Assembly: GCF_025252405.1 (NCBI RefSeq)
Contig: NZ_CP104307.1
Location: 1,922,001 to 1,986,000, forward strand
DNA from: Flavobacterium sp. TR2
GTDB lineage: Bacteria; Bacteroidota; Bacteroidia; Flavobacteriales; Flavobacteriaceae
Direction: 5' to 3'
Length of the DNA: 64,000 bases
A program made the position numbers and the translations under genes. Positions 31,320-48,292 of this stretch are shown here, one piece after another. The notes beneath the pieces were generated by a model. The model worked only from the letters and a program-made list of their open reading frames with translations, made no database searches and was not told the DNA's origin. Positions within the stretch are counted from its first letter, which is position 1; each line of letters starts with the position of its first letter.

Positions 31320-31545
31320 GTTCCACAATCATTCATCGCTATAAAGTTATGACACTTTTTTCATTTTATCCTGATCAAAATATGGTGGGGATAATACAAA
31401 TATAAAACCTAATTCATTGAGGATCATAAGTAAAATTTACTTGTCATCACTCAATTATTTTTTAGATTATTATAAAGATAAGTCCCTTTTTTGTCAATGT
31501 CATGGACATAATATGTACATCAAAACGCAAATCATGAATTAGAAT

Positions 31546-31884: not shown

Positions 31885-32295
31885 GATTATTAAATATTTC
31901 TTTAGCTTTTTCTATCTTCTCCAGAAAAACTGTCTCAACTTCTTTTTTCATCCATTGCAGTTTCTCATTTGCATAATCTACACTCTCAATATCAAAAGGC
32001 TCAGCATGTTCTCCCCATTGCACAGCCTTACGGGCGTATTCCATCTTCTCTAATGCATCCTTTTCTTTTTCAATACATCAAATACATTTCCGAATGAGCT
32101 TTTAAATGCACCGACATGTTCCTGCTGGTCAGCTATGTCTTCATGAGGGATCCATTCCCCTGTCAAAAGCCATGAAACATTTATGAACATATACCTGAAC
32201 TGCTGATGAAGAACATAAAATGCCATTAAGAGATTATCGTTATTATGATGATACTTGAAATCTCTGCCGATTGTAACTGCTTCCGATCTCCACAT
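31871..32295 (-). pseudogene. HEPN-like protein split by a frameshift
   Basis: The first frame, 81 residues from 32295, runs to 32050 and has a HEPN-like helix pair (NNDNLLMAFYVLHQQFRYMFINVSWLLTGEW, then HEDIADQQEHVGAF). At the A-rich tract TTGAAAAAGAAAAGG (about 32063-32077) the sensible reading moves by -1. It continues DALEKMEYARKAVQWGEHAE to the stop at 31871, giving about 140 residues in all. It could be a real -1 slip, an assembly error or decay. The start overlaps the preceding frame by 53 bp. The pattern fits a nucleotidyltransferase-like plus HEPN-like pair. Confidence 0.55.
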
Positions 32296-32704
32296 TTGGT
32301 ATCTCTTCTTTGTCTGCTTTATTAAGACGCTTTAGTTTTATACTTTTTATATCCATAACGGGCTTCTGCCTATCATTTATATATATAAGATCCGTTTCTC
32401 CGCAGTTTAGAATAAAAAAGAGATTTCCTCCTTTCAATTCATCTTTTATGTAGTCCCTGTTAAAAAAACAGAATACAAACTCAGTATGATTCTGGATTAC
32501 TTTCCATAAATGGTCATTGACATCGTCATAATAATGTTCGCTTTCTCTGCTTATCACTAAAGACATAATCCCGATTTTTGATTCTAAATCTGATTCCGTA
32601 AAATAAATGCAGTCAGCTTCGACAAATTCCAAAAGAAGTTTTGCCATTTTCTTTACAGCCCTATATCTGGGATGTTCTTTATGGGTTAGAATATTACAAT
32701 ACAT
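32243..32704 (-). CDS. Possible nucleotidyltransferase-like domain protein
   Basis: 153 residues, mixed alpha/beta (YRAVKKMAKLLLEFVEADCIYFTE, GIMSLVISRESEHYYDDVNDHLW, EFVFCFFNRDYIKDEL). This resembles the N-terminal half of the 282-residue protein upstream, which also precedes a HEPN-like part. I see no GSxxxD catalytic motif, so if it has that fold it is inactive. It starts 14 bp after the upstream gene ends. It may once have been fused to the HEPN-like frame that follows. Confidence 0.55.
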   Translation of the reverse strand: MYCNILTHKEHPRYRAVKKMAKLLLEFVEADCIYFTESDLESKIGIMSLVISRESEHYYDDVNDHLWKVIQNHTEFVFCFFNRDYIKDELKGGNLFFILNCGETDLIYINDRQKPVMDIKSIKLKRLNKADKEEIPNVEIGSSYNRQRFQVSS

Positions 32705-32718
32705 AACTTCTGCTTTTA

Positions 32719-33567
32719 CTATTCAACAGTACACAAGCTTTCTTGTCGCAGTAATTCCGCCTCGGCAATCTCAGTAGCTTTTGCATAAAAAACATCGCAT
32801 CTTTTCTCTAGAAGTTCTATATCCACTAAACAGGATTTTTTCACATTGCTCCAGCGTAGCGAAGCTGGATTTGCTTTTAACAGATCAAACATCGCTTTAT
32901 CCTCACTAGTAGTTCGTGGAAAAATATCCGAAGTTAAAGGAGTAAATATTTCACATATTTCAAATAAATACGGCAGTGAAAAATGATCGGGATAATATCC
33001 TAAAAACACACTAATAAGTCCCAAGCATATTTGCTCTACAGCGATATGATACATAGATTCCTGAACAAATCCAGTAGTAGTGTAATCAAGCTGGCTTACG
33101 CTTGCCAAATAGGTCTCAGCGATTATATTTCTATTTTTCCAATAAGACTTTATACTTTTGATTTTAAATTCTGGAGACCCCTCAAAGGAGATATTTAAAG
33201 GCAAATTTTCACGTTCATACGCCTTATAGCCTCTTGTCACAACCTGATGATAAAAATACAGTTGGTTGTGTGTGAGAGAATGCTTGAATTTTGTTTTATG
33301 AAATAATAGTGTTACTGTGTAACGGCCTTCAGTTTTGTGTTTTATTATATCGCTGATATCTGCAACGGCATTTATAATATATTCATCCGTTAAAACCAGC
33401 AGATAATAGTGAGTATGCGCTTTTTCTCCAGAAACAGATTCTTGAAAAGGGTTTTCAACTGCGTCAAAGTGCTTTTTTTCTCCAAAGCAGTATATACTGC
33501 CTGTACTTATGCAGTCAGTAATAATACCGCTCACTGTCTGCAATCCTAAGTTGTCAATTGTTTTCAT
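32719..33567 (-). CDS. HEPN-domain protein with nucleotidyltransferase-like N terminus
   Basis: 282 residues. About 1-155 is alpha/beta (HTHYYLLVLTDE, YTVTLLFHKTKFKHSL, LYFYHQVVTRGYKAYE), like the degenerate MNT-type domains that precede HEPN domains in Bacteroidota. About 160-280 carries the HEPN helix pattern (ESMYHIAVEQICLGLISVFLGYYPDHFSLPYLFEICEIF). No clear R-x4-6-H pair, so RNase activity is doubtful. First gene of the minus-strand operon, divergent from the XRE regulator across a 173-bp control region. Confidence 0.65.
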   Translation of the reverse strand: MKTIDNLGLQTVSGIITDCISTGSIYCFGEKKHFDAVENPFQESVSGEKAHTHYYLLVLTDEYIINAVADISDIIKHKTEGRYTVTLLFHKTKFKHSLTHNQLYFYHQVVTRGYKAYERENLPLNISFEGSPEFKIKSIKSYWKNRNIIAETYLASVSQLDYTTTGFVQESMYHIAVEQICLGLISVFLGYYPDHFSLPYLFEICEIFTPLTSDIFPRTTSEDKAMFDLLKANPASLRWSNVKKSCLVDIELLEKRCDVFYAKATEIAEAELLRQESLCTVE

Positions 33568-33645
33568 AATTTTGCTTATTTTAGTTAATACTTGTGTGAA
33601 AAATTGTATTTTTGTTTAACACACAGGCAAGTAAGCAATTACTGG

Positions 33646-33677
33646 TACCGTACCGTATCAAATTTTACCGTACCGTA
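33646..33677. promoter_or_regulatory. TACCG iteron operator
   Basis: TACCGTACCGTA occurs at 33646-33657 and 33666-33677, exactly 20 bp (two helical turns) apart, giving four TACCG units in the divergent control region. Probable binding site of the adjacent XRE protein or of a replication or excision factor. Confidence 0.6.
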
Positions 33678-33728
33678 CATGGGATTTTTTGTATCATACA
33701 TGAATCTCACATTTTTATTCTTAATTAT

Positions 33729-33736
33729 TATCTTTG
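33729..33736 (+). promoter_or_regulatory. -7 promoter box (TATCTTTG)
   Basis: TATCTTTG matches TAnnTTTG and ends only 4 bases before the ATG at 33741, so the regulator mRNA is probably leaderless. Confidence 0.65.
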
Positions 33737-33740
33737 AGCT

Positions 33741-34148
33741 ATGAGTACATTAACAAAACAAAACCACATGGGGCGTAAAATCAGCCGCATCCGTGAACTG
33801 AAAGACATGAAGCAGGAAGCACTGGCGCAGGCTATGGGAACAAACCAGCAGACTGTTTCGATATTAGAAAATAGTGAAGAAATAGACGATGAAAAATTAA
33901 AAGAAGTGGCAAAAGCCCTAGGAATAAGCGTGGAAGCAATTAAAAATTTTTCTGATGAAGGCGTAATTAATTACTTCAACAGCTTTAATAATTTTAACGA
34001 TAATTCGTCATTAAATAGCCAATGCACTTTTAACCCACTGGATAAATTAATGGAATCTGTAGATGAGAATAAAAAACTTTACGAAAGATTATTGAAATCT
34101 GAACAAGACAAAATTGAATATTTGGAAAAATTACTAAAAGCTAAATAA
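33741..34148 (+). CDS. XRE-family transcriptional regulator
   Basis: 135 residues. HTH_3 domain at about 10-65 (GRKISRIRELKDMKQEALAQAMGTNQQTVSILENSEEI). The middle is Asn-rich and the C-terminal part forms a coiled coil (DENKKLYERLLKSEQDKIEYLEKLLKAK), likely for dimerisation. This type is common in Bacteroidota mobilizable elements. Divergent from the HEPN operon and next to the TACCG repeats, so it probably regulates both. Confidence 0.9.
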   Translation: MSTLTKQNHMGRKISRIRELKDMKQEALAQAMGTNQQTVSILENSEEIDDEKLKEVAKALGISVEAIKNFSDEGVINYFNSFNNFNDNSSLNSQCTFNPLDKLMESVDENKKLYERLLKSEQDKIEYLEKLLKAK

Positions 34149-34170
34149 GCTTTTATAAAAGATATATTAA

Positions 34171-34210
34171 TTCAAAAAAAAAGAGACTCTACAGTCTCTT
34201 TTTTTTTGAA
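34171..34210. terminator. Strong bidirectional terminator
   Basis: 18-bp perfect arms built from TTCAAAAAAAAAGAGACT and its complement around the loop CTAC; serves the convergent regulator and coiled-coil genes. Confidence 0.9.
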
Positions 34211-34223
34211 TATCTGACAAAAA

Positions 34224-35285
34224 CTATAGCATAGACTGATAAAGTTTATATTGTTCACAAAAGTGTTTAGCATTTTGAAAATTGCTTATATAATATAATT
34301 CATTGATCCCTGACTCGGTTTTTATATGAATAGATCCATATAAAACTATTGGGATCTTATAATTATTAACAAACCTTTTATCAGGCGAGCCGTCTCTGTT
34401 TACTCTATACCAAGTTTCACCAACAATTTCAGTATCCGTCTGTATATTTTTACTTTCCTCTAAAAATCGAGCTTCTGAATAGTATAATTGGAGATCAGAA
34501 TAATCAAGAACAGCAATATCATCTTTGGTTTTAAAATATATTATGAAACTTGGATAAAAATAAAAATCCCCACCGTTATAATTTTCAAAATAGAAACTTT
34601 TTTCATCTGTTTTAATTGCGGGAATTGATTCTATTGAAAATGCTACCTCATTTCGATGCATTGAAGTCTGTGCTGCAGCTTTCGTATCTGTATTAGCTTC
34701 TGAATAAGTCATATCCCAGATTTTATCCGAATTTTTTAATGAAGTAAATGCACTTACAAGATCAGAATATTTATCTTTAAACTCGACCGTTTCAAATTCA
34801 TATCTAATATTTAAATACGATTCAGTTTGAGCCCGCTTTACGGTCTCAAGAGCAATTCGGCTCTCTTCTAATTCTTCTGTAAGTCTCAGTAATTTCTTTT
34901 TATATAAAAATCTAAAAATTGAGTTTTTTGTTTTTAGATATTGCCCATTAAGCGTCTTGTGTTTTTCTGAAAGTTTTGCTACTTCATCTGTAATTATTTC
35001 TCTTTGGTAGTAAAGATTTATAATTTTTTCCCTGACACTGCTAAGATTTTTAGAATTTAACCTTTCAGTATTAAAATGGCTTTCAATTTTGCCATATTCT
35101 ACTTTATCAAAAAGCTGTTTTAAAATATCATTTCCCAGTTCTCGTCCCTTATTCTTTGCTTCCTGAAATTTTGATTCATCTAAGCTACTAACTCTGTCTG
35201 TTTCGGTGCGTTTACCAACTGTGAAAACAATCTGATGTGAAATAAGAGACTGATTTAAAAAGTCATTTTGTAAGGCTGTGTCCAT
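34224..35285 (-). CDS. Coiled-coil protein of unknown function
   Basis: 353 residues, no signal peptide. The central part is a long coiled coil (about 70-155: KIINLYYQREIITDEVAKLSEKHKTL, LRLTEELEESRIALETVKRA). The C-terminal 150 residues form an alpha/beta domain with NYNGGDFYFYPSFIIYF, TWYRVNRDGSPDKRFVNN and YGSIHIKTESGINELYYISN. I do not recognise the family. Single gene, convergent with the XRE regulator. It could be cargo, for example a defence or stress sensor; this is inference only. Confidence 0.7.
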   Translation of the reverse strand: MDTALQNDFLNQSLISHQIVFTVGKRTETDRVSSLDESKFQEAKNKGRELGNDILKQLFDKVEYGKIESHFNTERLNSKNLSSVREKIINLYYQREIITDEVAKLSEKHKTLNGQYLKTKNSIFRFLYKKKLLRLTEELEESRIALETVKRAQTESYLNIRYEFETVEFKDKYSDLVSAFTSLKNSDKIWDMTYSEANTDTKAAAQTSMHRNEVAFSIESIPAIKTDEKSFYFENYNGGDFYFYPSFIIYFKTKDDIAVLDYSDLQLYYSEARFLEESKNIQTDTEIVGETWYRVNRDGSPDKRFVNNYKIPIVLYGSIHIKTESGINELYYISNFQNAKHFCEQYKLYQSML

Positions 35286-35535
35286 AATCTATAGGTTTTA
35301 AAGCCAAATCTATTTAATATCAATTCATATTATTTACGGAAAACCATAATTCATAAAAATAAAGAGTTATTCATCTGAAAAAATCTAAACAGGCTTTATG
35401 CTCTTTTATTCGACATGTAAAATCTACATATGCCTGAAAAACCTTTTTGTTGATTATTTTAGTGTCCAAAGGATTATTCTATACAAGGCAAAGACAAAAT
35501 GAAACTTCCCAAAAGAAAAAAAAGCAAAGCAAAAT

Positions 35536-35632
35536 ATTGGACACAGCCAGAGAAGTGCGCATAACATTTTTTTTCGTTCCTCAAAAAATGCCCTTCGGGA
35601 CTTATAGCACTTCACCTGTCTGCTTGTCCAAT
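35536..35632. other. Structured non-coding segment (possible RNA or transfer site)
   Basis: ATTGGACA (35536-35543) pairs with TGTCCAAT (35625-35632). GAAGTGC (35552-35558) pairs with GCACTTC (35607-35613). A small CCC-TTC-GGG hairpin (35591-35599) sits inside. The three nested stems make one long imperfect hairpin of 97 nt in the 501-bp gene-free stretch 35286-35786. The remainder of that stretch is AT-rich with no other structure I can support. Confidence 0.55.
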
Positions 35633-35786
35633 TGAAGACTACTTTCTTTTTTCCCTTTTCTTTTAAAAAATTTTCAATCGAGACAACCTACTTCTAACCA
35701 CGTGTATTACAGTAAATTAAAAATTTTACTATATATTTATCACTAATAAAAAACAAACGATTTCTAATTCAATAATTCATTTACTT

Positions 35787-36023
35787 ATGAATCGTCCCAA
35801 AATTCTTTTTATAATTCTTTTAAGCCTTTTATTCTTCACACTTATATCTTTTTTATATCGCTATGAAAAAAACAAGATTTTGGAAAAGGAGCTTTCCCGC
35901 ATTGATAAAGAACTTTATTTAAAAGAGGTCTACTACAAAAAGAAAGTGAAAGAGTTTGAAGAGCTGGAAAAGAAACATAAAAAGCAGACTGACCAACTAA
36001 AAGCAGAGCTCTCAATTAAATGA
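35787..36023 (+). CDS. Small membrane-anchored coiled-coil protein
   Basis: 78 residues: one N-terminal transmembrane helix (ILFIILLSLLFFTLISFLY) and a charged coiled coil (KNKILEKELSRIDKELYLKEVYYKKKVKEFEELEKKHKKQ). It lies 190 bp before the oriT-like hairpin and reads towards the mob genes, so a role in mobilization is possible but unproven. Confidence 0.65.
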   Translation: MNRPKILFIILLSLLFFTLISFLYRYEKNKILEKELSRIDKELYLKEVYYKKKVKEFEELEKKHKKQTDQLKAELSIK

Positions 36024-36212
36024 TATTTTTATGATTCTCAAAATCTCTTTCCAAGAGCATTCAATTTTTATAGAGTTATTTAGTAAATAGTTAAAAGATA
36101 ACATCCTACAGCCATCATGACCATATTTTGCGCATGATACATTCAAATATTTTTTCTAAATTAGAATCCTGCTTTTAAAAAATCTCCAAAGATGTCCACG
36201 TTCCTGACATCA

Positions 36213-36277
36213 GCAAGATGAACGGTTGTTTAACAACCGCCTATCTTGCCACCCATTGCCTCGGAACTCGGCGGTGG
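36213..36277 (+). other. Probable origin of transfer (oriT)
   Basis: First hairpin: GCAAGAT (36213-36219) with ATCTTGC (36243-36249), and inside it CGGTTGTT with AACAACCG. Second: CCACC (36249-36253) with GGTGG (36273-36277), plus GCC/GGC. Two adjacent hairpins 44 bp before mobC-like and relaxase genes are the usual oriT arrangement. Transfer function and the nick site are inferred. The rest of 36024-36320 shows nothing else. Confidence 0.65.
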
Positions 36278-36320
36278 AGAAACCTAAAAGAAGAGAGTTT
36301 GATAACAATGAAAATGATAG

Positions 36321-36716
36321 ATGATGAAAAGAGAAAATTCAAACAGAACACGAATCGTGGGACTGCGATTCACTCCTTTGGAGTTTGCCGAACTGGAAAA
36401 AAGATTCAGAGCAAGCACATGCCGAAAATTAAGCGACCACATCAGAAGCCACTTATTCAACAAACCGATTGTAGCCACTTACAGAAATCAGTCGTTAGAC
36501 GATCTGATGGAAGAGACAGCTGTACTTACTTCCGAATTAAGGGCAATAGGCAATAATATCAATCAGATTGCCAGAAAGATAAACACGCTCAAAACAGTTC
36601 CTGAATTTAAAGGACATCTTTATCTGTTCGAGATCCAGAGAAAAAGGCTTTTTGATAAAATGGAAGAGGTCTCAGACCACACCCAAAAAATAGCAGAAAA
36701 ATGGTTGCAGTCATAA
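36321..36716 (+). CDS. MobC-like relaxosome accessory protein
   Basis: 131 residues. The N-terminal part resembles ribbon-helix-helix DNA binding (RTRIVGLRFTPLEFAELEKRF), followed by CRKLSDHIRSHLF and the helical MobC pattern LTSELRAIGNNINQIARKINTL. MobC-type proteins bind oriT and help the relaxase open the strands. Overlaps the relaxase by 16 bp, as usual for mobilization pairs. Confidence 0.88.
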   Translation: MMKRENSNRTRIVGLRFTPLEFAELEKRFRASTCRKLSDHIRSHLFNKPIVATYRNQSLDDLMEETAVLTSELRAIGNNINQIARKINTLKTVPEFKGHLYLFEIQRKRLFDKMEEVSDHTQKIAEKWLQS

Positions 36717-37945
36717 AAACAAGCTCGTCCATAAGAGGCATTCTGAATTACAACGAAAATAAAGTTGAGATTGGAAAAGCGGAATGTATAAGTGCTGTAA
36801 ATTATCCACTGGAGCTGGGAAAACTGACTTTCACTTCAAAATTAAACCGCTTTCTAAAACTGGCAGAACTCAATACCAATGCGAAGAGGAATTCGGTGCA
36901 TATTTCGCTCAACTTTGATCCCTCGGAGAATCATTCGAAAGAAAAACTGGCTGAAATTGCGGATGTATATATGGAAAAACTGGGATTCGGCAGACAGCCT
37001 TATCTGGTGTATCAGCATTATGATGCAGGACACCCTCACTGCCATATCGTGACAAACAACATTCAGAGGGACGGAAAAAGAATCGATCTGCATTTACTGG
37101 GAGTCAGAAAATCAGAACCAGCCCGAAAAGAAATTGAAGAAATGTTCGGACTTGTAAAAGCCGAAGGAAGAAAACAGAAAGAACAATTTTCGTTAAATCC
37201 AATAGATGTCGGCAGAGTCCAATACGGAAAGACAGAGTCCAGAAAGGCAATCAACTCAGTTTTAAATCAGGTGTTGCTTGACTATAAATATTCAAGCCTG
37301 CCTGAACTCAACGCGGTTTTAAACCTCTATAATGTCCATGCTGACAGAGGAAGCGAGGGATCGAGAGTTTTTAAAAACAACGGACTGCTTTACAAGATAC
37401 TTGACCAGAATTCAAAACCGATAGGCGTGCCGATAAAAGCCAGCGAATTCTACAGCAGACCTACCTTAAAATTTCTGGAGGAAAAATTCAGGGTAAACGA
37501 AACAAAGAAACAATACGGCAAAAGCCATGTTAAAAATGCTGTGAGAAAGGCTTTTTTTGATGAAAGAATAACTACTGTCAAGAGATTATCCGAAAGGCTC
37601 GAAAATGAAGCGATTCATACTGTTTTAAGAAAAAGCAATGAGGGAAAGCTTTATGGAATTACTTTTATCGACTTTAAAACACAGACAGTTGTCAATGGAA
37701 GCAGTCTGGGAAAAGAATTCAGCGCAAAAGGAATTCAGGAAAGCTGTGCCATGAACATTCTTGCACTTGAAAGGAAATATCAAAAGTCCATTTCAACTGC
37801 TCCAGAAAACTTTCAAAATTTGGAATTAAAAGAGTATGTGAAAGAAAATCTGGCAGATATACTTCTACGTGGAGAAAAAATAAATGACTACGTTTCGAAA
37901 CAATTTAAACAAAAAAAGAAAAGAAGACTTTACAATGGGATATAA
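36701..37945 (+). CDS. Relaxase (MobP/VirD2-type mobilization nuclease)
   Basis: 414 residues. The relaxase domain fills the N-terminal half: candidate catalytic Tyr in ILNYNENKVE, motif LNFDPSENHSKEKL, and metal-binding His111, His113 and His115 in GHPHCHIVTN. It should nick one strand at oriT and carry it into the recipient with a helper's transfer apparatus. The C terminus is basic (KQFKQKKKRRLYNGI). A decayed second copy of this 3' end lies 5.8 kb downstream. Confidence 0.93.
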   Translation: MVAVIKTSSSIRGILNYNENKVEIGKAECISAVNYPLELGKLTFTSKLNRFLKLAELNTNAKRNSVHISLNFDPSENHSKEKLAEIADVYMEKLGFGRQPYLVYQHYDAGHPHCHIVTNNIQRDGKRIDLHLLGVRKSEPARKEIEEMFGLVKAEGRKQKEQFSLNPIDVGRVQYGKTESRKAINSVLNQVLLDYKYSSLPELNAVLNLYNVHADRGSEGSRVFKNNGLLYKILDQNSKPIGVPIKASEFYSRPTLKFLEEKFRVNETKKQYGKSHVKNAVRKAFFDERITTVKRLSERLENEAIHTVLRKSNEGKLYGITFIDFKTQTVVNGSSLGKEFSAKGIQESCAMNILALERKYQKSISTAPENFQNLELKEYVKENLADILLRGEKINDYVSKQFKQKKKRRLYNGI

Positions 37946-37951
37946 AATAGT

Positions 37952-37970
37952 AAGGTGCATTATGCACCTT
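37952..37970 (+). terminator. Small palindrome after the relaxase
   Basis: AAGGTGCAT and ATGCACCTT around one T, then TTTT. Short loop and weak T-run; possibly a terminator. Confidence 0.45.
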
Positions 37971-38142
37971 TTAGGTTAGCGCCAATTGTTGTAATTATAT
38001 CCCACTTTCGAGTCTATTTGTGTTGTATACATAAATCTAACTATTTTAATTTGCTTTTTTGTTTTCTTTTGAAAATTGAGCCTTTGAGAAAGAAGCATAT
38101 TTTAATAAATTCTTATATTTAAAGTATTAAAAAAAGTCATTA

Positions 38143-40005
38143 ATGGAAAAGGAAATTGATAATTTATTATTTTATTATTTTAAAAACCCAGATGATTTAT
38201 CAGGTATTGTAAAGAATACAGATATAGATTATTTTAAAAGTGAAAAATTATTAATTGATGAGCATGAAAAACTTGTTTTAAATTTTGAATCTGAACTTTT
38301 AAATAAAGAACTTATTAACATGTTAGAGATTTCTCTTGGCATTAAACTAAGTAAAAATATATCCAATACGATAAAATATATTGATGAATTTGCAAATTTC
38401 CTTATTAAAAAATATTCTGCAGAAAATAATAGAATTCCAGTTTTAAGATTGACCAAAAATTTAAAAATATACTTTTTATTATATAATTTTAATAGTTTAG
38501 AAGTCTTTAATTTTCTACTTAATCTACTAAATAGTAAGGATAATCGTCCAAGACATCTTAACTCTTTTGAGGAAATTTATTTCCATTTTTTGTTTCATTC
38601 AAAATATGATATAAAAACAATTTATAGCTCTTGTACAGAAACTTACAAGAAAAGCAAGTATCAGTCAAGGCATATTTTTTCATACGTCAAAAAACTTGTT
38701 ACCTTAAAGATTTTATTATCTAAACAATTATATGAATATGGTTTGGAAAATAATATCCAGCAATATCCAGGATTTGCTCCAACTTTAATTTCTGAAATGT
38801 ATAATTTATCAGATTCGCAGGCTATTGAATATTCCAAAAAGTTATTAGAGATTGATAGAGCCGAAGCTTTTAAAACTTTTTCTCATTTTAACATAACTTG
38901 TAAAGAAGAAGTAGAGAATATTTTTAATCTAACAAAAGATTTAGATTGTAGAACCGTAAATGAAATTGATCAACAAACTTTTTTATTTTGCAAATTGATT
39001 GAAAACATTAATATCTCACATGAAATCAGAAATGAGTGTTTCAACAAAATTGTTATACACTTAAAATCAGAAAACTTAGAAATCGCGAATGCTACGTTTC
39101 ACAATATTACTTACTGTCTTGAAAATTACGAAACCCAGAGATATCAATTATTATTCATTTATTTAAACAATACTAAAAATTTTAAAATTATAAACGATTT
39201 TTTCTACACTTTTAAAACGCCAAATTATCTTTTCGATTTCATAATGAAAGATTTTGACGCAAAAGGTTTCAGAAATTCTGCTGATATTTTTGACGATACA
39301 ATTTCTCATTTTTGGAATGAAAGTAAAAAAGAAGTTGAATTAATAATTCTAAACATGTTCAGTCAAAGAAGGTACTCTCTCTTGGCTTTAAAAATAATAT
39401 TAAGCAGTAATAGTGATTTTCCTTATCCAATTAATTTCTTAGATATTAAAACTGAAGAAGCTCAAAAAAATGCGATAGATGCTTTTAGTATTTTCCCGTA
39501 CTCAATTGATAAATTAATACCTCTTATTTTAAAACTAAAAGAATCAAAATTTATCAATGTACGCACACATCTATCAAAAGAATTAGAAAATCTAGTATTT
39601 GAAACATACCACGAGTCACTTTATGAACTAGTAATTCCCCATCTTAATGGAATAAAAGATAGAAAGCTTATAAAATCATTAAAAAATGCAATAACAGATT
39701 ATAAAAACCTAAAAGAACAAAAATCAAAAATTAAAGATCTCAGTCCATGGGAGAATGAGAAGGATTTACTTGATTTATATTACCGCCTAGAACATGAGAA
39801 TAACGCAAAAATCTCGAAGAACTTCCCAGCTAAAGAATCGTTTTTATCTATGACGAAAGGTACAATTATTGTGCGAGGTAAAGCATGGAAATTAGAAGAC
39901 CAAGATGAGGCTTTGCCATTACAAGCATTTAAATCTAGTTTATTAATCAACAGCAGAGCATATAAAAATCCAAACAATTATGAGAACGAACTTGAAAATT
40001 TTTAA
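38143..40005 (+). CDS. Large helical protein, first gene of putative two-gene nuclease system
   Basis: 620 residues, nearly all alpha-helical, very AT-rich with many Asn/Lys/Ile; no signal peptide or membrane helix. Repeated helix pairs in the middle (for example IENINISHEIRNECFNKIVIHL, ANATFHNITYCLENYETQRYQL) look like HEAT/ARM-type solenoid repeats. The last 60 residues change character (GTIIVRGKAWKLEDQDEALPLQAF, then SRAYKNPNNYENELENF) and may be a separate conserved tail. I do not recognise the family. The stop is 4 bp before the next start, so it almost certainly works with the nuclease-like protein. Confidence 0.75.
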   Translation: MEKEIDNLLFYYFKNPDDLSGIVKNTDIDYFKSEKLLIDEHEKLVLNFESELLNKELINMLEISLGIKLSKNISNTIKYIDEFANFLIKKYSAENNRIPVLRLTKNLKIYFLLYNFNSLEVFNFLLNLLNSKDNRPRHLNSFEEIYFHFLFHSKYDIKTIYSSCTETYKKSKYQSRHIFSYVKKLVTLKILLSKQLYEYGLENNIQQYPGFAPTLISEMYNLSDSQAIEYSKKLLEIDRAEAFKTFSHFNITCKEEVENIFNLTKDLDCRTVNEIDQQTFLFCKLIENINISHEIRNECFNKIVIHLKSENLEIANATFHNITYCLENYETQRYQLLFIYLNNTKNFKIINDFFYTFKTPNYLFDFIMKDFDAKGFRNSADIFDDTISHFWNESKKEVELIILNMFSQRRYSLLALKIILSSNSDFPYPINFLDIKTEEAQKNAIDAFSIFPYSIDKLIPLILKLKESKFINVRTHLSKELENLVFETYHESLYELVIPHLNGIKDRKLIKSLKNAITDYKNLKEQKSKIKDLSPWENEKDLLDLYYRLEHENNAKISKNFPAKESFLSMTKGTIIVRGKAWKLEDQDEALPLQAFKSSLLINSRAYKNPNNYENELENF

Positions 40006-40009
40006 GTAA

Positions 40010-41755
40010 ATGGATATAAAAAACATTATTGTAAAAGAGTATCTAGAATCGTTAACAGAAAAAAATGAGTTAAATAGGATATTTCCAATTCTTTTAGAAG
40101 TAATGGGATTCACAATACTATCTAAACCAACCGAGTATATAGGATTGCAAGAATATGGCAAAGACATTGTTGCTGTTGGTGTAGATTTAGATAATGTAAA
40201 AAAAAGATTCTACTTTGAGTTAAAAGGAGGTAACGAAAGGGACATTACAAATGAAAACTTTTATGGTAAAGATGGCATTGCAGACTCTCTTACACAGGCT
40301 TCTTATAATAAGTTTGTATCAGCATTCCCAGAATTTGACACATTACCCTTAAAAATTATAATAGTTCATAACGGGATAATAAAAGGGGCAGTACAGTCAA
40401 CATTTGAAAGCATGATTAAGGGTTTGGAAGAAAATCTCAAAAACACAACATTTGACAGATGGGATATTTCTCGTTTAACGATTATGTTTTCAGAGAAACT
40501 ATTTGGAGCCTACCTGCTTACAGACCCAATAACAACAAAATTATTTAATAGGATTCTCGTTAATCTAAATGCATCAGATGGAATCTCAAAAGATTATACT
40601 CAACTAATAAAAATATTGTTAGAGAAAAATGAATGGAAGAAAAATAAAAAACTTGCCAGAAAATGGGTACTACTTTTTGAAAGCTTAAAATTGATTGGTT
40701 TCATTATTTATACAGAGTGTAAAGAATATAATAATCTTGAAATTGCAAAAAGATACCTTACACATTTAACATTGGCATTTTGGCATTGGATATTAAAAAA
40801 TAAACTTGAAAGAGACAAAAAAGTTATCGTTTATTTTGAGCAAGTATTACAATTTTATTACCAAGTTTTAACTGAATATTTTTCAAGAACAATAGATATT
40901 GCCTGTTTAAAAGACGGACTATATTCTGAAGATGGCGGAAGATATGAGCAGATTGGATACACAAATCGAACGTTCGAATATTTAGAGTACTTTTGTTTAA
41001 GAACTAATATTGATAGATTCTTCAATGGTAAAAACAATGACGAACTTTTTAATAACTTACTGGTTAAGATTATAAATAATAATAATGTTTGCACAAGACC
41101 ACTCCTAGACATTAACTCCATCACAATAAGTAATATCTTGAATTTATTTATCGAGCTTAATCAAGCTCAAAATGCAAAGAATTATTTATTTCTGGTTGTT
41201 CGCCAAATCATTTACTCAAAAGAAAATTTTGACTTTTTACCAGACTGTAATAACAGCATAGAAAACGTAATTAAATTTCTTGTAACAGGTACAAAGCCTG
41301 TGTACTATTCCGACAGTACATCACTATTAATAACAATGATTCTGGAATATATTGTAATTTTTGACATGGAACAATCTTACAATGAGTTGAGAGATTTTAT
41401 AAAAAAGCATGAAATTGACTTAGGCATTTTTATACCATTTCACGGAGTAGGCTCAAAAAACACAAAGCTTATTTCTGATAAAAATAACGATCTAGAAGAA
41501 CAGCTCTTCTCCAAATCATTTACCGATGGATACCAGTCCGAAATTCGTATAACAGAAAGAAGTCCTTCAAAAAATCTAAGCTTTGCTGAGTTTAAGGAAA
41601 AAACTTTAAGGAAGGATAAAGAGTTTACTTATCAATATAGAGCTGCAGAAGCTGGTTTTCCATTTTTAACGGAATTGGCACACACTTACTTTCTAACTCC
41701 TTACTTTCCAGATAAATGGAGGAAGTATTTTAATAGGTTTATTCCTGAAAACTAA
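40010..41755 (+). CDS. PD-(D/E)XK nuclease-like protein, second gene of the pair
   Basis: 581 residues. The N-terminal 100 carry a restriction-endonuclease-like active site: Glu30 (LLEVMGF), Asp52 (EYGKDIVAVG), Glu70-x-Lys72 (FYFELKGG) and Gln96 (LTQASYN), the order expected for Mrr/resolvase-like PD-(D/E)XK folds. The remaining 450 residues are helical and unrecognised, ending AHTYFLTPYFPDKWRKYFNRF. Four bases after the helical partner. Inferred role: DNA cleavage triggered by the partner, as in phage-defence systems; this is not shown. Confidence 0.75.
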   Translation: MDIKNIIVKEYLESLTEKNELNRIFPILLEVMGFTILSKPTEYIGLQEYGKDIVAVGVDLDNVKKRFYFELKGGNERDITNENFYGKDGIADSLTQASYNKFVSAFPEFDTLPLKIIIVHNGIIKGAVQSTFESMIKGLEENLKNTTFDRWDISRLTIMFSEKLFGAYLLTDPITTKLFNRILVNLNASDGISKDYTQLIKILLEKNEWKKNKKLARKWVLLFESLKLIGFIIYTECKEYNNLEIAKRYLTHLTLAFWHWILKNKLERDKKVIVYFEQVLQFYYQVLTEYFSRTIDIACLKDGLYSEDGGRYEQIGYTNRTFEYLEYFCLRTNIDRFFNGKNNDELFNNLLVKIINNNNVCTRPLLDINSITISNILNLFIELNQAQNAKNYLFLVVRQIIYSKENFDFLPDCNNSIENVIKFLVTGTKPVYYSDSTSLLITMILEYIVIFDMEQSYNELRDFIKKHEIDLGIFIPFHGVGSKNTKLISDKNNDLEEQLFSKSFTDGYQSEIRITERSPSKNLSFAEFKEKTLRKDKEFTYQYRAAEAGFPFLTELAHTYFLTPYFPDKWRKYFNRFIPEN

Positions 41756-41797
41756 TACCATTTTATTACTTTATAATCTAAAAATATCATACAAAAC

Positions 41798-41824
41798 AAA
41801 AAGAGGTTTTCGAACCTCTTTTTT
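41798..41824. terminator. Bidirectional terminator
   Basis: AAAAAGAGGTT, loop TTCG, AACCTCTTTTT: perfect 11-bp stem with a tetraloop between convergent genes. Confidence 0.9.
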
Positions 41825-41851
41825 AAATTTCTGCAATTGAATTTTAAACAA

Positions 41852-42760
41852 TTATTCTGTTGTGAATTCTTCAAATCGACTTATATATTTTAATCGAAAA
41901 TATTTATTCCAGTATTCATCATTTAGATTCAGTTCATTTTTTCCCTTTTCAATAAGATAATATTTATCATTACTTTTTACACCGTAAATTCGATATGATT
42001 GCAAAAATTTATTCCCCTTAGTTTTACGAAACACCGAAAATCTAGTTACAGAAGAATTCTTTGCGCCAATGGTAATTGCTACATTAATATCTTTATTTGA
42101 ATACTCATAAATTCCCTTTAGTTCAAATAATGAATTAGGATAGAGCATTACATGAGGATCATAACCAACTTGCGAACTGTTAAAACAATCTCTGCTAGTA
42201 AAAATAGTGTCCTTTTTAGTTGTAATAGCGCAATTTATAAATTTATTGTAATCACGATGTATAAAAGCACCATCAATATAAGGGTATTTACTTTTGTTCT
42301 CAGCCATAATGACTGAGTTTTTTCCGTCAATTTTATACATTTCAAACGCTAAATCTTTATAATCAGCTCCCTTTACGTTTTTAGATAGCTTATAGATATT
42401 TTCAGATAATTCATGTCTTAATTTATCATTTTCACTTCTAAGAAGAGCATTCGACTCTTGAAGCTTCTTTGTATTGTTATTACTCGCTTTAATTATAGAT
42501 AATTCCGTTTTTATAAATTTATTATCCAATTTCGTCTCAGAATCAGCTTGTAACTTATTAGTGACCGCAAAATCTAATAATGTTATTGTTATAGAAATTA
42601 TTACTAAAATTATAATTAGCCACCCAATAGGTTTTAGTCCTTTTGAATTTTCTTTTTTGAAATCAGATATGGCATAAAATACTGCAATAAAAGCAGTAAT
42701 TAAAATACTTACTGACTTTATTAAATTAACAAGTCCATGTTTTATTATAAAATCAATCAT
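41852..42760 (-). CDS. Two-helix membrane protein with coiled coil
   Basis: 302 residues. Two transmembrane helices at about 11-30 (LIKSVSILITAFIAVFYAI) and 45-64 (IGWLIIILVIISITITLLDF) with a short loop, then a coiled coil (about 85-125: KKLQESNALLRSENDKLRHEL) and a C-terminal beta-rich domain. No known family. A membrane anchor plus sensor-like domain beside nuclease and HEPN genes is compatible with a membrane-acting effector, but the sequence does not prove it. Confidence 0.7.
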   Translation of the reverse strand: MIDFIIKHGLVNLIKSVSILITAFIAVFYAISDFKKENSKGLKPIGWLIIILVIISITITLLDFAVTNKLQADSETKLDNKFIKTELSIIKASNNNTKKLQESNALLRSENDKLRHELSENIYKLSKNVKGADYKDLAFEMYKIDGKNSVIMAENKSKYPYIDGAFIHRDYNKFINCAITTKKDTIFTSRDCFNSSQVGYDPHVMLYPNSLFELKGIYEYSNKDINVAITIGAKNSSVTRFSVFRKTKGNKFLQSYRIYGVKSNDKYYLIEKGKNELNLNDEYWNKYFRLKYISRFEEFTTE

Positions 42761-42889
42761 TTCTTTTTAGACTTAGGAGTGATTTGAAAATACTTAGCTA
42801 TAATTTTGTTTTAAATATATTAATTTATTTAAGGAAAGTTTAATCTTCCATGATAAACTCATATATGAATTGCTTAACAGCTCAACAAA

Positions 42890-42973
42890 ATGAAAAAAGC
42901 TTTAGATTTAATTTTGAACATCTCGTCTAGTCAAGATTGTGGCGCTAGCATAAGCGGAGGATCGGAATTTTAA
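42890..42973 (+). CDS. Possible 27-residue small ORF
   Basis: ATG to TAA without interruption: MKKALDLILNISSSQDCGAS followed by ISGGSEF. The Cys/Gly/Ser-rich end is unlike the surrounding AT-rich DNA. It may be a relic of a longer gene or chance. It ends 4 bases before the stop of the convergent HEPN gene. Confidence 0.25.
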   Translation: MKKALDLILNISSSQDCGASISGGSEF

Positions 42974-42976
42974 ATA

Positions 42977-43480
42977 CTATTTTCGGATTCTTGTTCCTTG
43001 TTCTTGTAATTTTAATAATGCTAAGGTTTCTGCCATATCTTTCCCTTTAGAGGAACAAAAGTCTATCAAATCATATTCTATTACACGTTGAATACTTTCT
43101 GCTTTATCTGAAATATATTTAATTTTATCTAACAATTCCTCTTTTATTTTTCCAGTATTTAAATCTTCTTCGTTTTCACTGATAACTTTGTGAATCAACC
43201 AATTCCTTTGCATTAAAAAAGCATTTAATTCATCTTGCAATGAGAAATTATAGAGTTCCTCTTTAATTGCAATTTTAATAGCCTTTCCTAAAGTATAACT
43301 CTGGTTTTGTTTTAAAAATTCATCCGCACGCTCTTTTGTTTCTGTGGGATTCATTTTAAGAGTAATTGAATAACTAAGTGCTTGTTCGACCATTTGGGTT
43401 TTCAATACAGCTTCTCCAACAAAACAATACAAATTAATTTCATTGTTGTTGGCCTGTATTTTTGTAACATTTTTTTTCAT
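42977..43480 (-). CDS. Stand-alone HEPN-type protein
   Basis: 167 residues, helical. Near the centre, QRNWLIHKV contains Arg92-x4-His97, the R-x4-6-H motif of HEPN ribonucleases. The preceding GEAVLKTQMVEQALSYSI and TLGKAIKIAIKEEL helices fit the fold. Many HEPN proteins are RNase toxins or abortive-infection effectors. It lies alone between a possible relic ORF and the relaxase remnant, and no antitoxin is evident beside it. Confidence 0.7.
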   Translation of the reverse strand: MKKNVTKIQANNNEINLYCFVGEAVLKTQMVEQALSYSITLKMNPTETKERADEFLKQNQSYTLGKAIKIAIKEELYNFSLQDELNAFLMQRNWLIHKVISENEEDLNTGKIKEELLDKIKYISDKAESIQRVIEYDLIDFCSSKGKDMAETLALLKLQEQGTRIRK

Positions 43481-43654
43481 AACTGAAGCTTTTTTTTGAT
43501 TAAAATCAGTAATTATCTATTTTGCTATTTATTTTATCAAAAATACTTCTTTAGTGCGCGGTGATTTTGCGTAGTGAAAAATATAATTTCTCATGAATAT
43601 TCTTAATCAATCGCGCGGATTTGTAATCCTTGCTTTCACTCAAAAGGATGCATT

Positions 43655-43790
43655 AAAGAAAATCTAGCAGAAATTCTGTTTCGTGGCGAAAGATAAATAA
43701 TAATGTACCGAAAGAATTTAACAAACGGAAAAAGAGAAGAATATTTAAAAATCTTTACAAATGGCTATATCATTTTATACATTTTAGGTT
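43655..43790 (+). pseudogene. Decayed second copy of the relaxase 3' end
   Basis: AAAGAAAATCTAGCAG and the next 120 bases align with the relaxase end at 37840-37980. The reading gives KENLAEILFRGE, then after a one-base deletion KINNNVPKEFNKRKKRRIF, against KENLADILLRGEKINDYVSKQFKQKKKRR split by a few changes in the live gene. The similarity continues past the stop to TTTTAGGTTT. The rest of 43481-43848 holds only a GGATT-TGT-AATCC palindrome near 43618. Confidence 0.75.
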
Positions 43791-43848
43791 TAATTATAGA
43801 AAATATCAAATCCGAGTAGAAATAGGCCATAGGAAGGGTAAGTATTTT

Positions 43849-44706
43849 TTAACCCTTAAAAATCATACCCGTTAGCTCTACACCATAGTTTCTTTTAATC
43901 GTATCTATAAACTCTCTATCATTTACGTTGGAAACAACGATTATTTTTCGACTGACTCTTGGACAAAATAGCGCACCAAAATTTCCATAATGAAAATGAA
44001 TACCAATAGCTGATTTATAAGGATCCTTTGAAATTAGATAATTTTGTGAATACGCACCTGTAGAAGCGTCACCAAATGGTATTGGTAAAATCACATTGCC
44101 TGATTGATTTTGACTTGTTCTTATAGTTACCGGTCTTCCACTATAAGTAGATAATTGAAGCAGATATTGCAGACCATATTCCGTCCTATGGAACGTAATT
44201 CTAAAACCTCCGATACCTGGAATTCCTTTCTCTATAACTTTATCAAATGCTTTGGTTTGACTTTCTAATATTTTATTAGGCTCTAAACTTTTTAAGTTTG
44301 GTACAAACTCTCGTTGAAATTCGTTGAAGCCTTCAATATCGCCAATCCAAAAAGACTGATTAGTTACATCTATTTTACCATTCTGCACCTTATATAGCAG
44401 TGGCTGATTTTCTAATGATGTAACTAAAAAATCCGTAGTATAATTACTTTCAATATTAAAACTCAAAAGAACTTTTTTGACATTCGTGATGTCGAAAATA
44501 TTTTCTTTAAACAGTTTCTCTATGGCACTCTGCGCAACTTCCACATCTCCAGCAAATGACACAGCAATACTGGGATTTAGTATAATGCTTTTTAGCACAC
44601 CACTAAAAATACTATTTCTGTTGGATACAACATTCGGGTCGGAAATCGTGGAGTCACTTTCTACTCTGACACCTCCGTGACATATTTTTGCAATTATTAG
44701 TGTCAT
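43849..44706 (-). CDS. Proteasome-like Ntn-hydrolase
   Basis: 285 residues. After Met removal the chain starts with Thr: TLIIAKICHGGVRVESDSTIS. Counting Thr as 1, it has Thr1, Asp17 and a Lys at 38 in GVLKSIILNPSIAVSFAGD, which lines up with Lys33 of proteasome beta subunits (NKVIEINPYLLGTMSG pattern). This is the catalytic trio of that fold. The C-terminal half (FGDASTGAYSQNYL and after) is unrecognised. It probably shares an operon with the YbjQ-zinc-ribbon gene 51 bp upstream. No ATPase partner such as HslU is near. Confidence 0.7.
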   Translation of the reverse strand: MTLIIAKICHGGVRVESDSTISDPNVVSNRNSIFSGVLKSIILNPSIAVSFAGDVEVAQSAIEKLFKENIFDITNVKKVLLSFNIESNYTTDFLVTSLENQPLLYKVQNGKIDVTNQSFWIGDIEGFNEFQREFVPNLKSLEPNKILESQTKAFDKVIEKGIPGIGGFRITFHRTEYGLQYLLQLSTYSGRPVTIRTSQNQSGNVILPIPFGDASTGAYSQNYLISKDPYKSAIGIHFHYGNFGALFCPRVSRKIIVVSNVNDREFIDTIKRNYGVELTGMIFKG

Positions 44707-44757
44707 AATAAAATTGAAAATCTATTACATATATGGAATATCTTAATCTCTAATAAT

Positions 44758-45855
44758 TTATATTGCAAGATATTCTTTTATTAAATCAATTTTTTGCTCG
44801 ATTTGTTTTTCTGCTTCGGAAGGCTTTAATTCATTTGGTTTAAATCCTTTTATATCCTTATGACAGCTACTACAATATTCTCCTATTTCATTTATTTTAG
44901 AACATTCACAATTCCAAACCTCTTTTTCTTTCGAAGACAGCATTTGCTTTTTCATTGTTTTCGTTCCTCTTTCAAAAAAATTACTTTTGATATACTCTAG
45001 TATAGTATCTAAATTTTTCTTGTCCGTTTGATCGTAAAATGGCTTATCATAGGTAGCCATTTTTAGTGCTATCTTTTGTACATTAAAATTATCATCGTTC
45101 AATAGTTTTATTATTTCGTCATAATTGAATAAATTTAAATCCTTTATAACTTTTGATAGATATTCTGCTACTGAAGTATTTTCGGTTCTTTTAATATTAG
45201 CATATAAAAGACTTATTTTTTGATCTTCTTTTAAAACACCAACATAGTTAATAAATCTTTTATTAAAAGAATTATAAGCCTCTCCGTAATTCTGAGGAGT
45301 TGTAATTATATCTGAATATCGTTTAAGTATATTGGGAAAAACTTCTTCTATTTGATTTTCGATTACAAAGTTCCAAAAATCTTCATCTGTTGTCAAAATT
45401 CCTGATTGAGCTTCTTTAATTAACTCCTGCTTTTTACGTAAAATATTTATTTTTTCAATACTTACAATTTCAACCTTGTCATCTCGATCCGAAAGGGTGT
45501 TAGTCGCATTCTCTTTTTCAATAATAACTGCAGTACCAATGGCCGTAATCATAAACATAGATTTTCCTTTACCTGAAATTTCGTCTAGATCAATACTTAA
45601 TCCTATGATACAATTTCCACCAATTTCGTGTGTTGCAAGTTTTATTTTTTCGATTGCTTCATTATATATTGAAGATAATTGCTTTTGATATGCATTAGAT
45701 CGACCTCCAAAAACATCAGTTAACCCTCCCATAAAATCACTGAAGAAATTAGTACCAGCAACAACATGCGCGGTAACAGGTTTGAGAGGCTTTTTAATTT
45801 TTATTCCTTCTATTGAAGAAGTTGTCAACACTAAAACATCTTTTGGATTTCCCAT
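44758..45855 (-). CDS. YbjQ-domain/zinc-ribbon fusion protein
   Basis: 365 residues. About 1-112 is a YbjQ-type (putative metal-binding) domain: VLVLTTSSIEGIKIKK, VVAGTNFFSDFMGGLTDVFGGRS, GGNCIIGLSIDLDEI and GTAVII. A helical middle follows (about 130-300). The C-terminal zinc ribbon has Cys316, Cys318, Cys328 and Cys331, then a coiled-coil tail. YbjQ proteins are usually about 105 residues alone; this fusion is unusual. Upstream of the Ntn-hydrolase in the same direction. Confidence 0.72.
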   Translation of the reverse strand: MGNPKDVLVLTTSSIEGIKIKKPLKPVTAHVVAGTNFFSDFMGGLTDVFGGRSNAYQKQLSSIYNEAIEKIKLATHEIGGNCIIGLSIDLDEISGKGKSMFMITAIGTAVIIEKENATNTLSDRDDKVEIVSIEKINILRKKQELIKEAQSGILTTDEDFWNFVIENQIEEVFPNILKRYSDIITTPQNYGEAYNSFNKRFINYVGVLKEDQKISLLYANIKRTENTSVAEYLSKVIKDLNLFNYDEIIKLLNDDNFNVQKIALKMATYDKPFYDQTDKKNLDTILEYIKSNFFERGTKTMKKQMLSSKEKEVWNCECSKINEIGEYCSSCHKDIKGFKPNELKPSEAEKQIEQKIDLIKEYLAI

Positions 45856-46044
45856 AACGTTAAATTTTAATATTTATATACAAACCTAATTAATTAAATT
45901 AGTCAATCTTTATGGTTTTCCGTAATTAGAATACACTTTTTATTTGTTATTTTGACTATCACATTTTAACTAAACTATCAAAGGGAAAATTCTTTATTTC
46001 CTTTTTTAACCTAATTAAAATCAGAAACCTTAAACATCATAAAT

Positions 46045-46791
46045 ATGCAGAAAAAATTACTTTCTTTTTTCCTAATTGTGATTTCCTTCTGTCAAGCGCA
46101 GGAAAGGATAAATGACAAGCTTCCCGTTATTACAAAAAAAAATGAAGCATTAATTCTTGCAAATGGTTGGTATAAAAGTGAAGCTGGACAATGGATTAGT
46201 GGTAAAAACAAGATTCCGCAAGATTTAGGAGAAAATCAGAAATTATTAGGTAATTATGAAGCGTATGGCCTTGGTTCAGATAATTTCATTTCACTAGAAA
46301 TAAAAGATGTTACTATTGCTGATAGTACATATGCCGTTTTAATTAAAAAATATAGAGATGGATTTTATACTTACAGTTCCATTCAGAAGGGTTGGAATAA
46401 TAAAATAAGTTGCAAATATTATGTATTTTCAAAAGGTGAGCTCAACAAAATTAAAGAGATTGAAAATGACAATTTAAATAAAATATTGTTTAAAATAATT
46501 TACGAAGGAAACTTATTATTCATAAACACAAAGACGTTTAATAATACTACTATTTCAAAGGACATTTTGTCTAAAATAAATGACAAAACCTATTTGGATC
46601 ATCAAAGCCTAGTAAGTCACCATTTAGGGCTTAACTTATACTATTTTAAAGCAAAAAATATAGTTCAATTTTATTTTTACGATGCCAATTTATATTTCGA
46701 TGATTCGCTTTATGAAGACTCAGAAGAAACAAAAGCAAAAACTTATTATGAAACAGATGCAATAAGTTTCAAGAAGTTTTTAAATTTTTAA
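46045..46791 (+). CDS. Secreted protein of unknown function
   Basis: 248 residues with signal peptide (MQKKLLSFFLIVISFCQAQ). The mature part is alpha/beta with no recognisable motif (GNYEAYGLGSDNFISLEIKDVTI, LVSHHLGLNLYYFKAKNIVQ). Preceded by a 189-bp AT-rich intergenic region shared with the divergent YbjQ gene. The AT-rich base use matches the element cargo, not the chromosome. Confidence 0.65.
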   Translation: MQKKLLSFFLIVISFCQAQERINDKLPVITKKNEALILANGWYKSEAGQWISGKNKIPQDLGENQKLLGNYEAYGLGSDNFISLEIKDVTIADSTYAVLIKKYRDGFYTYSSIQKGWNNKISCKYYVFSKGELNKIKEIENDNLNKILFKIIYEGNLLFINTKTFNNTTISKDILSKINDKTYLDHQSLVSHHLGLNLYYFKAKNIVQFYFYDANLYFDDSLYEDSEETKAKTYYETDAISFKKFLNF

Positions 46792-46847
46792 ATTTCATGA
46801 TTTTTTGCCAATAAAAAACACGATTGTTTTCCTAATTTAACTAAATC

Positions 46848-47540
46848 ATGAGAAACAAAGTTATCAGTTTTAGAGAGTTTCTGGAAAGAAACAAAATATT
46901 TTTAGAAGTTTTAACAGCTATTGTGTTAACTAGTACAAGCATTTTTGTTTCTTTTCAGGCAAACAACATTGCAAACCAAGCCAATATCATTTCCAGTACT
47001 CAAACAGGAATCATGAAAATGGAAAATACACCAAGTATAGAAATACGAAGGACACAAATAATGAGCGATTCCTCTGGAATCGATAATGTTAGTAAATGGA
47101 CTGTAATCAATAATAACAGCATCATATCAAACTTTGAAATTGAGAAAGAATACGCGTATTTAAATATTGCTAAAAGAACAAATAGTGTAGAAATAGATAT
47201 TCCGTTGATGGAATATATTAATAGTGATGGAAAATTAACTGGACAAAATGAAGGTGTAGTATATGTATTTGACAACAAGAACTGCAGTAAAAATGAATTA
47301 CTAATAAGACAAGGAATATGGGATTATGGCTATAGCCAAATAAAAAGTTTCATTGAAATATCATATACTAATGCATTACGAGAGAGGGAGACAAAATATT
47401 ATCAAATTACACCACTAATTCAAGAAATTTCAACTAGAGAATGGGATTCGATAAAGAATGATTGGAGTAAGAAAAGTAAAAATGTTATTCACTTACAAGA
47501 TATTGAAACAAACATTGAAAAAATAAAAGAGTATCAGTAA
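46848..47540 (+). CDS. Membrane-anchored protein of unknown function
   Basis: 230 residues: basic N terminus, one transmembrane helix at about 18-36 (FLEVLTAIVLTSTSIFVSF), then a soluble domain of mixed structure (IEIRRTQIMSDSSGID, WTVINNNSIISNFEIEKEYAYL). 57 bp after the secreted protein and likely co-transcribed. Last gene of the element before attR. Confidence 0.65.
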   Translation: MRNKVISFREFLERNKIFLEVLTAIVLTSTSIFVSFQANNIANQANIISSTQTGIMKMENTPSIEIRRTQIMSDSSGIDNVSKWTVINNNSIISNFEIEKEYAYLNIAKRTNSVEIDIPLMEYINSDGKLTGQNEGVVYVFDNKNCSKNELLIRQGIWDYGYSQIKSFIEISYTNALRERETKYYQITPLIQEISTREWDSIKNDWSKKSKNVIHLQDIETNIEKIKEYQ

Positions 47541-47660
47541 TTATTACCCAATAAGCTTTAATTTAAATTTTATACTTAAAATAGAGTTTACTTTTTAGAT
47601 TGATATTTCACTCAAAATAATTAGATCTTTCAATAAAAGGTTCGAATTCTGTACCGTCAA

Positions 47661-47666
47661 GGTCAC
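47661..47666. other. attR core GGTCAC
   Basis: Matches the tRNA 3' end core at 29583-29588. CCGTCAA just before it is the mirror of TTGACGG just after attL, which together build the attP dyad. Confidence 0.78.
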
Positions 47667-47677
47667 AAAAAAAAATG

Positions 47678-47710
47678 AAAGCCTGCAAAATATAAACTTT
47701 GCAGGCTTTT
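47678..47710 (+). terminator. Terminator, probably the original one of tRNA-Arg
   Basis: AAAGCCTGCAAA and TTTGCAGGCTTT, perfect 12-bp stem, then TTTT. It lies 12 bp after attR, as expected for the tRNA terminator displaced by the element. Confidence 0.85.
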
Positions 47711-47740
47711 TTATGGTTCGAAAATTTTTAATATTTTCTT

Positions 47741-48292
47741 CTAGTTTTTAATTTGATTATTTCTTAAAGTATAAGTTACCAGATTTTTTATATTCTGATG
47801 GGTGTTGTTATATTTTTCATTCTCCAATTTAAAGTTCATTTTTTTTAATATTGATACAGAATTAATATTGTCAGATGACGGAAAAGCAGTTATTATTTTT
47901 GCTTTTATTTTTTCAAACGCATATTCTATCACTTTTTTGATTGCTTCCGTCATTATTCCTTTGCCTTGAAATTCACTCAACATTTCATATCCTATTTCTA
48001 CAATTTCATTTTCAACATCAAAATTCCATAAACAAATTGAACCAATTAGATCGTTGTTTTCTTTTTCAGTTATAACCCAATAAATGCATTCATTTCTCGC
48101 AATTAAATTTTGCATTTTAATTATATACTCTTCTGCTTTTTGTAAGCTTGATGAATTCTCTCTTCCAACAAAAGCATTTACAGTTGCATCAGAATGTAAT
48201 TTATGGATTAAAATAACATCACTGTTTTCAATGTTTCTTAATATTAATCTTTCAGTAATTAGTTTAGGGAAATCTTTGAAATTTAATTCCAT
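47741..48292 (-). CDS. GNAT N-acetyltransferase (RimJ/RimL type)
   Basis: 183 residues. ITERLILRNIENSDVILIHKLHSD is the usual start of RimJ/RimL-type acetyltransferases; IGSICLWNF, VEIGYEMLSEFQGKGIMTEAIKKVIEYAFE holds the acetyl-CoA loop (QGKGI), and SVSILKKMNFK the last conserved segment. It probably acetylates an amine on a protein or small molecule; substrate unknown. Confidence 0.9.
   Translation of the reverse strand: MELNFKDFPKLITERLILRNIENSDVILIHKLHSDATVNAFVGRENSSSLQKAEEYIIKMQNLIARNECIYWVITEKENNDLIGSICLWNFDVENEIVEIGYEMLSEFQGKGIMTEAIKKVIEYAFEKIKAKIITAFPSSDNINSVSILKKMNFKLENEKYNNTHQNIKNLVTYTLRNNQIKN

Follow-up and report, generated by a model that had tools for sequence, protein, structure and literature searches.

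Two long, closely spaced genes in Flavobacterium sp. TR2 raise the question of whether they form an undescribed defence system, as a first-pass annotation of the sequence had proposed, or belong to a system that already has a name. The genes lie within a 64,000-nucleotide stretch (contig NZ_CP104307.1, positions 1,922,001 to 1,986,000 of the forward strand), referred to here as the window, whose own numbering is used throughout. The stop codon of the first gene is separated from the ATG of the second by 4 base pairs (bp):

38143 to 40005, plus strand: oloA, encoding a 620-amino-acid (aa) predicted alpha-solenoid (HEAT-like) protein.
40010 to 41755, plus strand: oloB, encoding a 581-aa protein with a predicted N-terminal PD-(D/E)XK-type nuclease domain and a helical C-terminal part.

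Comparison with PADLOC-DB reveals that the pair is an additional member of Olokun and not an undescribed system. OloB matches PDLC03926 with an E value of 4.1e-134 (residues 5-574 against profile 2-554 of 556), and OloA matches PDLC03925 with an E value of 6.4e-42 (residues 92-620 against profile 36-589 of 596). The proposal of a novel system was abandoned because both proteins match these models, and the locus further resembles Olokun in gene order, adjacency, mobile setting and the presence of defence genes near some relatives. The OloB profile had no match in 14 control genomes; the OloA profile is less specific, with matches also in 2 of the 14. Each profile has a single match in the host genome. 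Neither protein matched Pfam or NCBIfam at E <= 0.1. Where the locus departs from other Olokun loci is in OloA, which represents a divergent branch: it scores 142.6 bits to the PADLOC model, where the OloA proteins from 11 other genomes reach 217-265. Among the approximately 8,000 candidates scored for each protein, 293 homologues of OloB and 12 of OloA were recovered at E <= 1e-3, the closest named OloB proteins being from Flavobacteriaceae (75% identity) and Flavobacterium (66-68%). PMC10855318 attributes Olokun to Millman et al. 2022.

To be read as one system, the two genes should travel together, and inspection of related loci indicates that they do. A scan of one genome per species with two short peptide patterns yielded 30 OloB loci, and in all 30 the gene immediately preceding OloB, in the same orientation, matches OloA, the weakest match being that of locus L054 (E 9.3e-10); in L034 and L035 the OloA frame begins right at the boundary of the stretch. 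Spacing between the genes, measured in the 28 loci with an identified start codon, is -17 to +11 bp. A draw of 299 same-family genomes, window genome included, gave 16 matches to the OloB profile, and OloA adjoins OloB in each of the 12 genomes scoring at least 400 bits. The other 4 same-family genomes gave weak OloB matches (at most 37 bits), and no OloA was found in them. One locus, in Polaribacter porphyrae (L053:6123-9723), has OloA and OloB each in two reading frames and is possibly a decayed copy.

Strong OloB matches (at least 388 bits) occur in 4 of 395 genomes of a phylum draw and 8 of 199 genomes of a genus draw, the window genome being in both. Because strong matches are few in the family, phylum and genus draws, the distribution of Olokun is patchy, like that of mobile defence genes. 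A search of E. coli with Klebsiella DNA found a relative, about 85% identical, in 2 of 5,426 genomes. Among plasmid records, 29 of 72,556 match OloB, none covering 80% of the query. None of 50,697 phage records matched OloB, and none of the 73 pattern matches from a scan of viral contigs proved to be a relative; a phage-borne origin was rejected on these grounds.

We turn to the effector, for which the following positions are relevant:

40010 to 40519, plus strand: predicted nuclease domain, OloB residues 1-170, drawn from secondary structure and the top VIA rows.
40067 to 40069, plus strand: codon for Glu20, an acid conserved in helix two (162 of the 166 OloB rows have E).
40163 to 40165, plus strand: codon for Asp52, an acid predicted to bind metal (165 of the 166 rows have D and one has a gap).
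40217 to 40225, plus strand: Glu70-Leu71-Lys72 codons, predicted ExK (E70 in 154 and K72 in 165 of 166 rows).

These counts derive from an alignment of 166 OloB rows that comprises 165 distinct strings, contains many close relatives and includes two pieces of one split gene. Structures of OloA and OloB were predicted as whole single chains. In the OloB model a helix at 18-31 is followed by strands at 53-58 and 64-72, a helix at 90-99, a strand at 114-120, a helix at 126-142 and a strand at 146-151, an order that fits the alpha-beta core of a PD-(D/E)XK fold carrying D and ExK. For residues 1-167 the best VIA row is FokI, and the top rows also include MspJI, EcoT38I and Avs4. The PD-(D/E)XK nuclease proposed in the first-pass annotation is thus compatible with the predicted structure, and three of the residues it named, Asp52, Glu70 and Lys72, hold up in the alignment. 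The other two do not: position 30 is E in 112 of 166 rows, and position 96 is Q in 53 and E in 99. Better conserved are two acids of the first helices, Glu20 and E17, the latter kept in 163 of 166 rows. Assignment of OloB as a nuclease with a site formed by E20, D52, E70 and K72 is supported, not proven.

The likeness to known enzymes is partial. FokI, MspJI and EcoT38I rank high among the structural rows for the N-terminal part, whereas OloB has a large helical C-terminal part and no match by sequence to solved structures at E <= 1. Avs4 itself senses a phage protein. Part of Avs4 (8dgf) aligns to OloB residues 7-173; in contrast to Avs4, which is one large chain of 1534 residues, Olokun divides its parts between two proteins, neither of which has an ATPase domain by Pfam.

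The predicted structure of OloA is a helical solenoid, in keeping with the first impression of a helical repeat protein. No solved structure was matched by its sequence at E <= 1, and the two rows that a Foldseek search returned at E <= 0.001 were those of an AP2 adaptor and of a designed protein. Conservation is poor in the N-terminal part and concentrated in the C-terminal half. A plasmid of Klebsiella michiganensis carries a 300-aa OloA beside a full-length OloB (L059:4093-4995), and the match of this short protein to the OloA profile is confined to the C-terminal half.

Several observations count against a nuclease-bearing Olokun system. In the OloB model D52 sits just before a strand and not on it, a Foldseek search with OloB gave nothing at E <= 0.001 and a non-nuclease as its top row, and the rather mild conservation of the OloA tail lowers our confidence slightly. 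Taking these together with the evidence above, we consider it highly probable that oloAB is an Olokun system with a nuclease effector.

The setting of the pair is described by the following features:

29589 to 47666, no strand assigned: element carrying oloAB, 18,078 bp, from comparison with sister genome G006.
29514 to 29588, plus strand: transfer RNA (tRNA)-Arg (TCG), integration site, called by ARAGORN.
29583 to 29588, no strand assigned: left core repeat GGTCAC, the last 6 bases of tRNA-Arg.
47661 to 47666, no strand assigned: right core repeat GGTCAC.
29541 to 31103, minus strand: large serine recombinase at the element left end (Pfam Resolvase 2.1e-22, Recombinase 3.7e-12).
36321 to 36716, plus strand: MobC-like mobilisation protein upstream of oloAB (Pfam MobC_2 1.5e-12).
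36701 to 37945, plus strand: MobA/VirD2-type relaxase upstream of oloAB (Pfam Relaxase 6.9e-31).
41798 to 41823, no strand assigned: terminator-like hairpin after oloB, 11 pairs around a loop of 4 bases, which the scan reported for the minus strand alone.

In G006 the matches to window positions 24590-29590 (94%) and 47670-47751 (83%) lie next to each other (L057 1-4986 and 4987-5068), and because the two flanks stand side by side there, the inserted piece is 29589-47666. Inside the cores lie inverted 7-bp arms, TTGACGG at 29589-29595 and CCGTCAA within 47654-47666. A circular form of the element would read CCGTCAA-GGTCAC-TTGACGG; at the right end CCGTCAA is directly preceded by GGTTCGAA, a sequence shared with the tRNA T arm. 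The G006 site is not pristine, since a second copy of the element right end lies about 1.9 kb from the tRNA (L057 near 6927-6960). There, 50 of 60 bases of L057:6908-6967 are alike to window 47614-47673, and the match is lost at GGTCAC apart from a few A/T-rich bases. This copy, perhaps the remnant of a related element, supports the right boundary and shows the region to be a repeated target. A search of the tRNA region for exact repeats of at least 14 bases gave three A/T-rich words only and was uninformative.

The recombinase reading frame overruns the element left end such that its last 15 codons and stop fall within the chromosomal tRNA-Arg (29541-29588); its C-terminus therefore depends on the integration site. 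The element also carries several genes without a Pfam match. In its right half, 44758-45855 encodes a protein of 365 aa that has a YbjQ-type domain at residues 7-112 (Pfam 2.7e-24), a C-terminal CxC...CxxC stretch and no PADLOC match. The fraction of guanine plus cytosine is 0.306 in the element, 0.35 and 0.34 in the window flanks and 0.275 in oloAB. The element is integrative and, to judge by its mob genes, probably mobilisable. The earlier picture of a two-gene defence pair on a mobile element is upheld by the Olokun match and the 18,078-bp element at tRNA-Arg, as are its two open reading frames and the MobC and relaxase genes upstream. The proposed terminator fared less well, as the region has 2 terminator-like sites versus a shuffle mean of 1.1 and the hairpin alone is weak evidence. 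A promoter scan was likewise uninformative (27 sites versus 26.3 expected). Relatives of the window relaxase and of the recombinase each occur in 1 of the 30 related loci, within the stretches examined, so oloAB uses other vehicles or chromosomal sites elsewhere.

None of the five proteins adjoining the pair in the window matches PADLOC. Around its relatives, 20 proteins hand-picked from 11 of the 30 loci, a non-random sample with no control set, gave 13 matches to PADLOC at E <= 1e-5 and 7 proteins without a match. Genes of Gabija, of Lamassu, or of a Hachiman-like system plus Septu occur in 3 of the 11 sampled loci. The neighbours are:

L038: LmuB and a REase_II match.
L046: HamB-like helicase and PtuA.
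L041: GajA, GajB and a marginal MzaA.
L031: PDC-S28.
L048: type II methyltransferase.
L029: mad8.
L027: PDC-M68B.
L050: pAgo_II.

A LeoA/LeoBC match at L056 was discarded as a false lead, which Pfam reads as MnmE.

How might the two proteins act? OloB would be a metal-dependent nuclease that uses E20, D52, E70 and K72 to cut nucleic acid during infection. OloA would restrain or aim OloB and react to phage through its conserved C-terminal half, the last 50 residues of which may fold only on a partner. A nuclease role for Olokun is not a new idea, as a table of validated or predicted mechanisms in PMC10855318 already places the system under 'Nuclease Activity-Nucleic Acid Degradation'. Elsewhere Olokun is described as not thoroughly characterised (PMC12592470). 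It is reported from E. coli mobile islands (PMC10121019), a Pseudomonas genomic-island hotspot (PMC12629846) and Citrobacter koseri (PMC13268207). At least two strains that carry Olokun are lysed by a single Pseudomonas phage (PMC12390725).

The target of OloB separates two versions of this mechanism, and our confidence in Olokun with a nuclease effector does not extend to the choice between them. We lean slightly toward direct cutting of phage DNA. OloB might instead degrade host nucleic acid, causing abortive infection, with OloA as its inhibitor in a toxin-antitoxin-like arrangement, an explanation that is nested within the Olokun assignment and differs in target only. The tight two-gene operon, with genes abutting or overlapping, and the scaffold-plus-effector anatomy are both consistent with it, yet OloA is large and poorly conserved in its N-terminal part, unlike a simple antitoxin. 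A review that lists the Olokun mechanism as unknown (PMC12926258) leaves nothing to decide the target, and we take the host-directed version seriously without favouring it.

Explanations outside Olokun fare worse. A restriction enzyme, or an accessory for mobilisation or maintenance of the element, would account for FokI, MspJI and EcoT38I being among the best structural rows and for oloAB following a relaxase. However, Pfam finds no DNA methyltransferase among the 18 element proteins scanned (short open reading frames such as 32050-32295 lie outside the scan), a further difference from those enzymes and the ground on which restriction-modification was rejected, and the rarity of relaxase and recombinase relatives at other loci indicates that the pair is not tied to the mob module; we hold this explanation to be very unlikely. 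That the pair is an undescribed system merely resembling known ones is barely credible, for although the divergence of OloA and the absence of Pfam and NCBIfam matches speak for it, the two Olokun models each align with the greater part of their protein, and the genes are adjacent in the order seen in relatives.

Within Olokun, the ExK of the window OloB is complete; its acid, E70, is absent from 14 relatives, namely 12 from the same phylum and two plasmid proteins. In the alignment, position 70 is T, A, V or I in 11 of 166 rows (nine same-family open reading frames, Tolypothrix and Klebsiella), which are 19-24% identical to the window OloB and all keep E17, E20, D52 and K72. Strong PADLOC OloB matches in the same phylum (at least 388 bits), pooled from the family, phylum and genus genome draws, number 22, 10 with E70 and 12 without, and E20, D52 and K72 are present in every one. 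The 12 without E70 have T, A or V at this position (L012-L018, L020, L022, L072, L073 and L079). Outside this count stand L076 (79.8 bits, with R at position 20 and V at 70), L075 (166.1 bits to PADLOC over 17-553 and unmatched by our own OloB profile even unfiltered) and the weak matches L023-L026, L077, L078 and L086 (44 bits or less). The E70-less branch is defined by sequence similarity alone, with position 70 assigned by MAFFT alignment. No mention of OloB residues or of an E70-less form was found in excerpts of the Olokun literature searched, a scope that does not include the founding 2022 paper.

From the aligned sequences we put forward, tentatively and with considerable doubt, that Olokun may split by nuclease site into a form with the full E20-D52-E70xK72, to which the window locus would belong, and a form in which position 70 is T, A, V or I while E20, D52 and K72 are kept. 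Should both forms defend, it would be the helix acid E20, and not E70, that completes the metal site, or else the second form would operate one acid short or would not cut at all; in that case the 300-aa Klebsiella OloA would point to the C-terminal half as the smallest regulator. As a locus this one is unremarkable in kind, yet it helps show how the little-studied Olokun may work by supplying a member on a delimited element together with a concrete set of residues. That is to say, with natural relatives lacking E70 and a natural half-length OloA at hand, the mechanism of Olokun becomes testable.
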